Part shown: piece by piece, positions 33,401-36,262 of the stretch
Position numbering within the stretch: the first letter of the stretch is position 1
How the letters are laid out: the number at the start of each line of letters is the position of its first letter
NCBI GenBank assembly: GCA_000442015.1
Contig: KE561067.1
Coordinates: 1-64,000 of the forward strand
Length of the DNA stretch: 64,000 nt
Reading direction: 5' to 3'
Origin: Rozella allomycis CSF55
Lineage: Eukaryota > Rozellomycota
Program-made: the position numbers and the translations under genes
The notes under the pieces: generated by a model
What the model was told of the DNA's origin: nothing
Database searches by the model: none
The model's input: only the letters and a program-made list of their open reading frames with translations

Positions 33401-36262
33401 ATTCAATCTGCAACTTTATTCAAGAGGAAGATAAAGAAGTAACTAGAGAAGGTAAGGAAGTAGTTAGAGAAGGGAGAGAAGGGAGAGAGACTACTTCAAC
33501 ACATACTCCTTCTTCTACCACTACTTCTTCTAATACTTCAACTTCAACTCCTTTTACCACTTCAACCCCCTCTTACCCATCTAACCCCCCTACTACCCCC
33601 ATCAATTCGCTGCTGTTTCATCCCTTCGAGTTGAATTCAATTGAGAAACAAAAAATACAAATTTTGCTAATTAAAGAATTAATTAAAACAATAAAAATAA
33701 AATTCAATTCAAAATTTACAAATTTGTATCAAATGAAAAAAGATGAAATTTCCAAAATAGAAGAAAGAAATTCGCGAATTTTAGAAATAGTGAAAGAATT
33801 AGAGATGAAAGATTATTTAATAAAAAATTATTTTCTGGATGTTGATGAGAACCCAGAATTGTTGTTTCAAAATGATTTAAACAAAAATTCTAAAAAAGAA
33901 ACAATTTCTGAAATTTCCAAAATAGAAGAATGGAAGAAAAGGGGAATAAATTTGATGATGAATGGACGATTGGAATCATTTCAGAATACAGAAAATGAAA
34001 ATAATAAAATTCCAGAATTTATTTCTAAAAATAAATCAGAATTAACAGAAGAAGAAAAGAAGCTATTAAAAGAATATGAAAAGAAACAAAACACAATTAA
34101 AGAAGAATTAGAGAAACATAAAAAAGCATTGGAAACTGAATTGAAGAAAATTTCATCTTTTATTTCTGAAATTGCAATAAATTTTGATCTTAGATTGAAT
34201 CTATTTTTACAAGAAAAAATTTTCACAGATAATCTAATTCTATTTTTAGAACTTGAAATTTCTAAATTACAGAAATCAATTGTATTTAAAAAAGAAAAGG
34301 AAGAAAAAGAAGAAATATTAATTGAAAGGTTGAATGATTTGAAAATAGAAAAGATGAATTGTTTGAATGAGATTCCAGAGATTAAGAAAGATTTAGAGCA
34401 TTGCAGAGAAGGATATGAGAGTTGTTTGAAGAGAGAAAAGGAATTTGAAAAGCAATTTAAAAAAGAGTTTCATCAATATGAATTTTATTACGATTCACTT
34501 TTAAGATTATTCAAAAAGAGGGAATACACAAAGGTAAAGAGATTGAGTTAAAAGGTGATGTAGGTAATGTAAGAGTTAAAGTCTTATAATAGGTAATTCA
34601 ACTATAGTAGTCTTTCACTGCAGGTAATCCCCCCTTTAAGTCTCCAACTGCAGGTAATACCCCCTTCAAGTTTAACTTCTCAAACTTTAACTTCTCAAAA
34701 TAGTTATTTAAAGAATCCATTTAATTCTTTAAATGGAATTGAATCTCTTCTGCCAATTAATGAAAGTGACATCCCAGAAGGTACCTTCTAACCCTTTTAA
34801 AGACCAGGATTGAATGTAGAGATTTGGAATAAATTTCTAGATTTCAGAGAAAAAAAGATTAGATTGGAGCAAGAAGTGAAAATAGCAAATAAAAAATTTA
34901 ATGAAATGCAAAATCTAGTGAATCAAATTGTTTCAGAATCTGAAAAGATAAAAATAGAAACAGAAAAAGTTTCTGCAGATTTCATCAAATTTAAAGAAGC
35001 TTCTTTTCTCTTTTCTTTCAACGTTGAAGTTTTATGCAAACTCAAACAAGGCCAAGTTGAAGTTTCTCAAGCCCCTGTCCTAACTGACTATTCTGATGCA
35101 TGTCTCATCAACAGAAATATTGTAGAGAAATTAAATTCTCAAATTTTGCAAATTGCTTCTCAAAAAGTGGAAGCTCTAAATGAGATTAAAAATTACAGAA
35201 AAGGTAATTAGAAGGGATTTGAGGTGAGATAGGTAATCAGGGAGTTGAAAGGGTGAGATAGGTAACAGAGGGATATTTAAGGTGAGATAGGTAACAGAGA
35301 GTTGAAAGGGTGAGATAGGTAACAAAGGGATTTAGGGTGAGATAGGTACGTTAAAACTAGTAGGATAGAGATAGGTACTTCAATCTGTGGCTTATATATT
35401 AGGTACTCGGATCTGTGGCTTATATATTAGGTACTCGGATCTGTGGCTTATGAAATAGGTACTTGGATCTAAAACTATTTCATATAGGTACCTTCTAGTC
35501 TCTCCCCTTTATCTAGGTAAATACATTCAAAATCCTTAAAAAGGGATTCATTATTTGGAGTGGGAAAATAAAGTTTTGGACTTTCAACAGGAAAATTTAA
35601 TACTGAAAACAAGAGACATTCAACTGTTGAGAGTTTCTAAACAAATGCAAGATTTCATTCGCTCTGGTGACGATGGAAAACATTCAAACGAAATTTCATT
35701 AATTGAAAAAAGATTTGAACACGCAGAAAAAGTATTTTCTTTTCTTTTATTATTATAGAATCATCAACACAAGATTAATGAAAAGAAAAGATTAATTAAA
35801 TCGTTGAAATTGAAAATTAATCAAATTTCTTCTTCAAATGTTGATCTAAGCCACAAGTTGACAAATCTAGACTTGCTAGTCAAAGAGAGGCAACTAAGTG
35901 ATGGGGGAGATAGAAGTGGAGTTGAGAGGGTGGGAGATAGAAGTGGAAGTGAGAGGGTGGAAGATGATCATCGAGATAACGAGAAAGAGAAAGATGGAAT
36001 TGAGTTTAATAGGGTTGATAATGGTCATGGTGATATCTCTAATCAATCCATGGACACAAGTAATTCTCAATGTCATTCTCTAGTAGATAATCTAAAACAC
36101 GTCCAGATTTATAGCAGATTGAAAGAAAAAATTTCAGCTCAATCAGACGATCTTTTCATTCTCAAACAAGAAGTAGAAAAATTAAAGTCTAAATCTATTC
36201 CCTTGTTTGGCAGAATCAATTCTTCAAACATCAACCCCTGGTCGTCATTCGTAAAGAAATAA
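30444..36262 (+). CDS. CFAP43/CFAP44-family axonemal WD-repeat and coiled-coil protein
   Basis: Splicing gives a protein of roughly 1,600 residues. The N-terminal half is made of WD40 blades (YSTGSITNSVQSQY, SIDFHGDRMVVLGG, MRFDPMGRHLVVHSESG, MISPDFKWLCVLGNDG). The C-terminal half is long coiled coil with family signatures DIPEGLNVEIWNKFLDFR and GIHYLEWENKVLDF then DIQLLRVSKQM. These proteins form the tether/tetherhead that links inner-arm dynein to the axoneme. I favour CFAP43 but cannot exclude CFAP44. A charged KGEERVKGEE repeat and a Ser/Thr/Pro stretch lie mid-protein (33300-33610). Most introns are 24-31 nt, but three positions hold stacks of 3, 5 and 12 consecutive introns, annotated separately. 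Confidence 0.85.
30767..30852 (+). other. Three introns stacked without exons
   Basis: Units 30767-30795 (29 nt), 30796-30826 (31 nt) and 30827-30852 (26 nt) each begin GTA and end AG and abut exactly. The upstream exon ends one base into a glycine codon and the downstream exon supplies the other two, giving ITGLSDQTTIS in the WD domain. Removing only one or two units breaks the frame. The units are not obviously related in sequence. Confidence 0.75.
34534..34713 (+). repeat. Stack of five intron-like units in the CFAP gene
   Basis: Units 34534-34563, 34564-34592, 34593-34623, 34624-34653 and 34654-34713 start with GTAA and end with AG, with no bases between. The third and fourth share an ACTGCAG end and a GTAAT start. 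The last contains an internal repeat of TTTAACTTCTCAAA. Upstream exon ends KKREYTK in phase 0 and downstream exon begins NPFNSLNGIESLL in phase 0, leading to the conserved DIPEGLNVEIW motif. Confidence 0.75.
35204..35543 (+). repeat. Tandem array of twelve 27-29 nt intron-like units
   Basis: Twelve units abut with no spacer. Their first bases are 35204, 35233, 35262, 35291, 35319, 35346, 35375, 35403, 35431, 35459, 35488 and 35517, and the last unit ends at 35543. Every unit begins GTA and ends AG. Units 1-5 share the end GGTGAGATAG (unit 4-5 with slight changes). Units 7-9 share TCTGTGGCTTAT and the start GTACT. Unit 11 shares GTACCTTCTA with the lone intron at 34781-34807. The exon before ends NYRK plus one base and the exon after completes G-IHYLEWENK, a conserved family motif, so the whole array is removed from mRNA. 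Confidence 0.85.

Follow-up and report, generated by a model that had tools for sequence, protein, structure and literature searches.

The stretch analysed here (the window) comprises 64,000 nucleotides (nt) of the parasitic fungus Rozella allomycis CSF55 (assembly GCA_000442015.1, contig KE561067.1, positions 1 to 64,000 of the forward strand); a transporter encoded in it is 100% identical, over 97% of its length, to a protein of R. allomycis CSF55, a species of the Rozellomycota. The subject of the analysis is a block of 340 nt at positions 35204..35543 on the plus strand, within the gene for CFAP43, where twelve complete minimal introns appear to stand in array with no exon sequence between them. 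The gene was named from its joined protein, which matches CFAP43/FAP43 chains of the PDB (best match 9d2f_Y, E 7.9e-75, phmmer); its coding region as modelled, with a provisional start codon, spans 30846..36262 on the plus strand, with an earlier exon from about 30412. The block divides without remainder into units of 29, 29, 29, 28, 27, 29, 28, 28, 28, 29, 29 and 27 nt, each running from GTA to AG, and AG directly abuts GTA at 11 of the 11 internal boundaries (AG|GTA), so that the division into twelve units of 27-29 nt proposed in an earlier note on this DNA is exact. GTA occurs 13 times in the block, 12 of them at unit starts, and AG 37 times, 12 of them at unit ends. The acceptors are TAG at all 11 internal boundaries and AAG at the final one. 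A pattern of three successive junctions (AGGTAN{20,28}AGGTAN{20,28}AGGTA) gave 14 matches in the window, all on the plus strand and all inside CFAP43, as compared with none in 100 dinucleotide shuffles. The block contains no N and is therefore not an assembly join.

The sequence sharing described in the earlier note was likewise found. Units 1-5 (35204..35345, plus strand) form a G-rich family ending in GGTGAGATAG, with a GTGA motif in each (A at -6); units 1, 3 and 5 alternate with units 2 and 4, and Tandem Repeats Finder (TRF) reports a period of 57 (2.4 copies, 88% match). Units 7-9 (35375..35458, plus strand) form a second family which has TCTGTGGCTTAT in common and is without the branch-like motif BTRA as defined below; TRF reports a period of 28 across this region (35372-35470). 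Units 11-12 (35488..35543, plus strand) are the C-rich end of the array, with a GC skew of -0.5 and -0.3 (unit 1: +1.0).

The exon upstream of the array (34808..35203, plus strand) ends ...NYRK G in phase 1 according to the phmmer alignment with PDB chains, and the exon downstream (35544..35731, plus strand) starts GG ATT CAT. Excision of all 340 nt joins G|GG and reads ...NYRK-G-IHYLEWE..., the joined protein being ...NEIKNYRKGIHYLEWENK...; the counterpart in FAP43 of PDB entry 8glv, which we take to be from Chlamydomonas, is ...TAMKDFKRGIYAAQWEAQ..., with no gap there. Four CFAP43/FAP43 chains (8glv_Dp, 9fqr_H8, 9d2f_Y and 8j07_i6) were aligned without a gap at the site of the block, which upholds the claimed continuity of the reading phase and of the G-IHYLEWE motif. 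That removal of the whole block would be needed to restore the conserved CFAP43 protein is strongly supported by these alignments. No CFAP43 homologue was found at E 1e-3 among 5781 candidates of a large protein collection.

Eight introns of CFAP43 are solitary; they are 26 to 34 nt long and all on the plus strand (31365-31390, 31583-31613, 31736-31769, 32113-32138, 32271-32296, 32406-32431, 34781-34807 and 35732-35758); the one at 31736-31769 is 34 nt long in one gene model and 28 nt in the chain gene model, in which introns are limited to 22-34 nt and zero-length exons are permitted. Two further arrays of three units each lie in the same gene on the plus strand, at 30767..30852 (29, 31 and 26 nt) and at 34534..34623 (30, 29 and 31 nt). 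The latter is followed by an AG|GTA unit at 34624-34653 which is open in frame and may be exon or intron; the C-rich extension of this array at 34624-34703, also open in frame, may represent intron units turned exon, or the reverse. Across the window, the chain model placed solitary introns at 44 sites and yielded arrays of 2, 3 and 12 units, a count which omits the array at 30767, situated at the edge of the model. The two-unit array (28 and 28 nt; 60111..60166, plus strand) belongs to a gene encoding a Topoisom_bac domain. Within 60111-60190 this array is overlapped by an inverted repeat of 15 bp seen by eye (ACTTTCTAAAAATAG / CTATTTTTAGAAAGT), whose second arm enters the exon.

The block had been treated as a single locus. 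The locus is real, but arrays occur genome-wide. The triple-junction pattern gave 84 + 96 matches (180) in the 9.97-Mb assembly; the control, the same pattern reversed, gave 5 + 46 (51). A form starting with AGGTAAT gave 26 + 32 matches (control 0 + 1), and a form with TAG at the first two junctions gave 42 + 55 (97; control 0 + 1). The 97 matches of this stricter pattern make up 56 clusters on 32 of the 213 contigs. Judged from such patterns and from the gene models, intron trains are a genome-wide habit of R. allomycis, found in many genes and comprising two to twelve units. Twenty array-bearing stretches (numbered with L), picked for the presence of arrays, were fetched. Together with the window they contain, in the chain model, solitary introns at 201 sites and arrays of 2 (20), 3 (11), 4 (6), 5 (1) and 12 (1) units.

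Regarding the genes that carry these arrays, matches to Pfam and the PDB identified dynein heavy chains (L035, L044) and topoisomerase II (L050); another dynein heavy chain (L032) was recognised by its place beside DHC_N1 matches and by its own sequence. Further array genes encode an RPN1/RPN2 N-domain protein (L034), the ubiquitin-activating enzyme Uba1 (L036), an Hsp90 closest to TRAP1 (L038), a P-type ATPase (L042), a Sec7 protein (L045), HYDIN/CFAP65-like proteins (L046, L049) and a Ski2-like helicase closest to ASCC3/SLH1 (L047); those of L037 and L041 had no Pfam match. Several arrays split strongly conserved motifs. No insertion is seen where the joined protein is aligned across them for topoisomerase II (KYYK|GLGTST, five units), for the dynein P-loop (GSTGT|GKS, three units) and for the ASCC3/SLH1-like helicase (SKIK|VLFCTATLAWG, three units). 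Regarding the Hsp90 array, the PDB match shows a one-residue gap at the junction. Topoisomerase II of Rozella was absent from the best 120 of 7996 protein matches. At L046:6159-6098 (minus strand) a predicted 28-nt intron, a 6-nt exon and another 28-nt intron follow one another, the exon being near zero in length.

Solitary introns average 27.5 nt (n = 196, or 201 before those bearing N were dropped; model limited to 22-34 nt), and in a model that also allows longer introns at a cost, 166 of 180 are 26-30 nt long, with modes at 26-27 nt. Array units average 28.5-29.1 nt, i.e. 1.0-1.6 nt above the solitary introns; the earlier statement that unit length equals the standard intron length of this genome is thus near the mark without being exact. 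Nearly all introns lie within about 18-31 nt, as in the ultra-short class. The chain model contains 315 introns of 22-33 nt, a range that is partly built in. The published intron density of Rozella is 2.5 per kb (PMC8476143; articles are cited by PMC number).

Lengths were also assessed free of this prior, with a flat-length gene model applied to twelve gene loci (eleven fetched loci and CFAP43; nine fetched loci were left out). As the flat model absorbs short exons and crosses between genes, long stretches were checked against the chain model. It yielded 44 stretches of up to 34 nt and 49 longer ones. Of the 49, 24 tile exactly into 2, 3, 4, 5 or 12 units; of the 25 which do not, 19 become introns of up to 34 nt plus exon in the chain model, 5 contain N and 1 runs off the model. 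Random GTA..AG stretches tiled in 19 of 156 cases at 2x length and in 1 of 131, 1 of 141 and 2 of 143 cases at 3x, 4x and 5x. When the 20 loci and the window are all included, 89 stretches were no longer than 34 nt; among the longer ones 33 tile, 31 resolve inside one gene model and 20 contain N.

Regarding splice signals, A occupies position +3 in 96% and position +4 in 80% of the 196 solitary introns; the corresponding figures are 38 of 38 and 92% for first array units, and 100% and 83% for middle units. BTRA, our own candidate branch motif defined by sequence only, lies no more than 12 nt from the 3' end in 68% of the 73 internal units (41% in shuffles), and in 32 of the 73 it lies at 6-7 nt. 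Last units have it in 74% of cases (45% shuffled), and the excess over shuffles is smaller for solitary introns (61% vs 49%). Within the block BTRA is found at 6 nt from the end in units 1-5, at 5 nt in unit 12 and at 16 nt in unit 10.

Mean core identity is 0.61 between neighbouring units and 0.51 between units from different arrays. The 99th percentile of such strangers is exceeded by 22 of 73 neighbouring pairs, by 6 of 35 pairs at lag 2 and by 1 of 17 at lag 3. Three identical consecutive units were found at C158:169227-169313, and two at C195. These figures support an origin of part of the units by local tandem duplication. The alternation of the first five units of the block with a 57-nt period indicates that units were copied two at a time. 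The multiplication by tandem duplication claimed in the earlier note therefore stands for part of the units, but the other 51 of the 73 neighbouring pairs are not recognisably alike, and for those duplication is not shown. A DNA search of the whole genome with 35204-35543, skipping common words, returned only the block itself, and two unit patterns searched with 2-3 mismatches allowed gave no matches beyond their own arrays except at two weak places (2 mismatches in 17). As close copies of the block and the two unit patterns were not found dispersed elsewhere, an origin of the units as introners is without support.

Arrays also have a polarity from G-rich to C-rich. The pooled GC skew is +0.45 for first units, +0.12 for middle units, -0.24 for last units and +0.31 for solitary introns. 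In 42 arrays of at least three units, counted from the first unit preceded by AG, 35 have a lower skew in the last unit than in the first and 7 a higher one, and none of 5000 order permutations was as strong. Places that had not been fetched gave a similar picture: of 48 neighbouring pairs, 25 show a fall in skew, 10 a rise and 13 no change; when these places are grouped into 26 clusters and the first and last units seen are compared, the corresponding numbers are 18, 3 and 5 (0 of 10000 sign flips). Inside introns, the number of G varies inversely with that of C (r -0.52 in solitary, -0.63 in internal and -0.49 in last ones).

Pairing between the G-rich first and C-rich last units was examined, as was inverted duplication as the source of the polarity. 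A hairpin as a general rule is not borne out, as 41 arrays of at least three units fold at a mean z of -0.20 (dinucleotide shuffle) or -0.17 (within-unit shuffle); three lie below -2 and none above 2, with a strong stem at L032:6337 (z -4.1 to -5.5). Duplexes between first and last units of 38 arrays are no stabler than those between arrays (-5.79 vs -6.12). Base pairing between array ends, as judged from these folds and duplexes, does not account for the polarity. Inverted duplication is not indicated either, the mean reverse-complement score being 5.18 within arrays and 5.45 between them, with scores of at least 10 in 1.9% and 0.9%, respectively.

Taken as a whole, the block is probably a train of twelve complete minimal spliceosomal introns, separated by zero-length exons and removed in several splices of free order. 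The anatomy of the array and its removal from the mRNA are strongly supported, as far as sequence can tell, and the stepwise splicing of the train is likely but unproven. The spliceosome of R. allomycis would probably be unable to pair splice sites much beyond 26-31 nt apart, a limit suggested by the scarcity of longer ordinary introns and by the nucleomorph introns, which show the same in kind (PMC5014332). Because such a machine could not span much more than 31 nt, the block would need several reactions, and under the same limit an intervening sequence would grow by whole units. Each unit offers its own putative GTA donor and AG acceptor, and many also a branch-like BTRA; the train may be cleared by several unit-sized splicing reactions. 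The order of these would be free, because splicing from a donor to whichever acceptor lies downstream takes out entire units and does not touch the others (78 of the 78 donor-acceptor pairings in the block excise whole units), so that every route would give the same mRNA. Translation of unfinished transcripts would seldom go far: when splicing halts early, a stop codon should nearly always be left in place, as a stop is hit by 20 codons into the next exon with all 12 singly retained units and in 4091 of 4096 retention patterns. Units would be added, at least in part, by local tandem duplication of one or two at a time, only copies in the AG|GTA register surviving. No dedicated mechanism would be required for the exact unit register, because a copy in any other register would disrupt the gene.

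A wider reading is more tentative and falls somewhat short of an even chance. The spliceosome would be length-locked at about 26-31 nt, with introns growing in whole-unit quanta; the arrays would represent ongoing gain by exact unit duplication, as in the three identical neighbours on C158, and would be cleared at one exon junction by as many as twelve splices in succession, in any order; and a built-in polarity from G-rich to C-rich would keep the units unstructured or mark their position.

The block may instead be one long intron with an internal minisatellite, in which the first donor is joined directly to the last acceptor and the inner AG|GTA junctions are idle relics of duplication. This is unlikely in our judgement, although the block is partly a tandem repeat by TRF, half of its units are without the branch-like motif, and the final units of arrays are C-rich and end in AAG more commonly than internal ones, so that outer and inner sites differ; removal in one step would also be harmless, since every donor-acceptor choice yields the same mRNA. 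It leaves unexplained why junctions persist though 51 of 73 neighbours are no more alike than strangers (61% vs 51% core identity), an argument which is partly circular because the arrays were found by their junctions. Less circular is the observation that stretches longer than 34 nt, found without the use of internal junctions, tile far above chance. In addition, TAG is present at 61 of 73 internal acceptors as compared with 100 of 196 solitary ones, and no end-to-end base pairing was seen in the 41 array folds or in the first-last duplexes. That some units are retained as small or alternative exons and give protein variants is very unlikely: the unit at 34624-34653 can be read through in frame, and no stop occurs in units 7 and 8 of the block when read from the upstream frame, but every one of the twelve units retained singly meets a stop within itself or soon after, just 5 of the 4096 patterns stay open (full removal among them), and the aligned CFAP43 chains have no residues at the site. 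Least credible is an artefact of misassembled repeats or non-expressed sequence. The assembly does have single Ns with duplicated flanks, some of them inside or beside arrays, but 35204-35543 has no N, its units differ among themselves, and the same organisation recurs in many conserved genes on 32 contigs.

Several points weigh against a train of successively spliced introns and should be set beside it. Repeated splicing at one place would have to escape the exon junction complex, to which the suppression of regenerated splice sites is attributed (PMC8605326). G at position +5 is rarer in array units (first 11%, middle 6%, last 3%) than in solitary introns (23%), and BTRA lies within 12 nt of the end in just 6 of the 12 units of the block, units 6-9 and 11 having none. 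Only 16 of 38 final acceptors are TAG, significantly fewer than the internal ones (p 2e-5); this difference and the C-rich final units might point to a special status of the two outermost sites, and the G-to-C polarity, the main hint of special outer ends, may count somewhat for removal in one step. The loosest pattern has a control of 51 for its 180 matches. In the 20 loci and the window, 46 more stretches (38 to 399 nt, 5 of them no longer than 120 nt) neither tile nor resolve; most of these are probably intergenic, because the flat model jumps between genes. The limit of 22-34 nt was set within the chain model itself, and arrays were detected through intact junctions, so that decayed ones would have been missed. 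The 20 loci, being selected by their arrays, therefore give no estimate of array frequency.

Among known systems, recursive splicing at ratchet points in Drosophila and human shares abutting AG|GT, formally an exon of zero length, and proceeds by piecewise removal, as is proposed for Rozella (PMC8605326, PMC6110457). Ratchet points sit in long introns, such as the 73-kb intron of Ubx, and the intronic type needs a downstream cryptic exon (PMC8605326), whereas the pieces in Rozella are 27-31 nt long, come up to 12 in succession and leave no space for a cryptic exon. No such exon, the Drosophila criterion, follows the junctions of the block, where the next unit-end acceptor is 27-29 nt on and just 1 of 13 GTA is off the unit starts. 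Stwintrons of Hypoxylaceae, Lipomyces and Aspergillus are likewise complex fungal intervening sequences, removed, as the trains would be, by consecutive standard reactions, but in these one intron is nested in a splice element of another and the inner one is removed first (PMC9024468, PMC7138796). The Rozella units lie side by side, are up to 12 in number and are free in order by their sequence; judged on donors and acceptors only, the block shows no such nesting, all units running uninterrupted from GTA to AG. In L. starkeyi, abutting donors can be removed in one or two steps (PMC7138796).

The ultra-short introns of ciliates and nucleomorphs resemble those of Rozella in their near-fixed length (about 25 nt or 18-20 nt) and in intron definition; nucleomorph introns are mostly 18-20 nt long and those of 21-27 nt already splice worse (PMC5014332). 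Unlike Rozella, trains are not mentioned for them in the available part of that article, in which the word tandem is absent. Introner-like elements and intron gain by tandem duplication also produce new introns by sequence copying (PMC8469720, PMC4974935). The potato case is a one-gene tandem duplication, whereas in Rozella whole introns are duplicated. Introners are dispersed copies, whereas close copies of the block and of the two tested unit patterns are confined to their own arrays; near-identical copies at many genome sites were not found in the genome search of the block and these patterns. Trains of up to twelve complete minimal introns, as read here, are not covered by ratchet-point splicing, stwintrons or introners, and would amount to a further form of recursive splicing. 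No description of intron trains in Rozella was found in the literature searched, articles available in part included, which does not prove their absence in print. The accessible part of PMC8476143, which places Rozella as a sister lineage of Microsporidia, gives its intron density and makes no mention of trains.

The trains of R. allomycis provide a genome-wide system, occurring in nature, where the same exon junction may have to be spliced as many as twelve times; the read-out would be simple, as partial products would differ by 27-29 nt. Questions that are hard to approach elsewhere could be tested here, i.e. how the limit of intron length is set, how introns are born and multiply, and in which order neighbouring introns are removed, as well as how repeated splicing at one site evades the marks thought to block re-splicing. 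Gene predictions for Rozella may be broken at trains.

Regarding the assembly, the window contains nine single Ns (among them 541, 30112 and 39946), and others were noted at L050:5720 and L032:3298. Several of them bear the same sequence on both flanks; 39739-40154, for instance, consists of two 209-nt copies around the N at 39946, and in L050 a topoisomerase exon is repeated around an N. These duplicates look like unmerged contig ends, and tandem copies around an N are therefore not to be read as biology. Elsewhere in the window, three similar adjacent open frames were observed at 57044-58054, 61376-61960 and 62317-63435, which presumably encode proteins resembling the CAP/PR-1 family.

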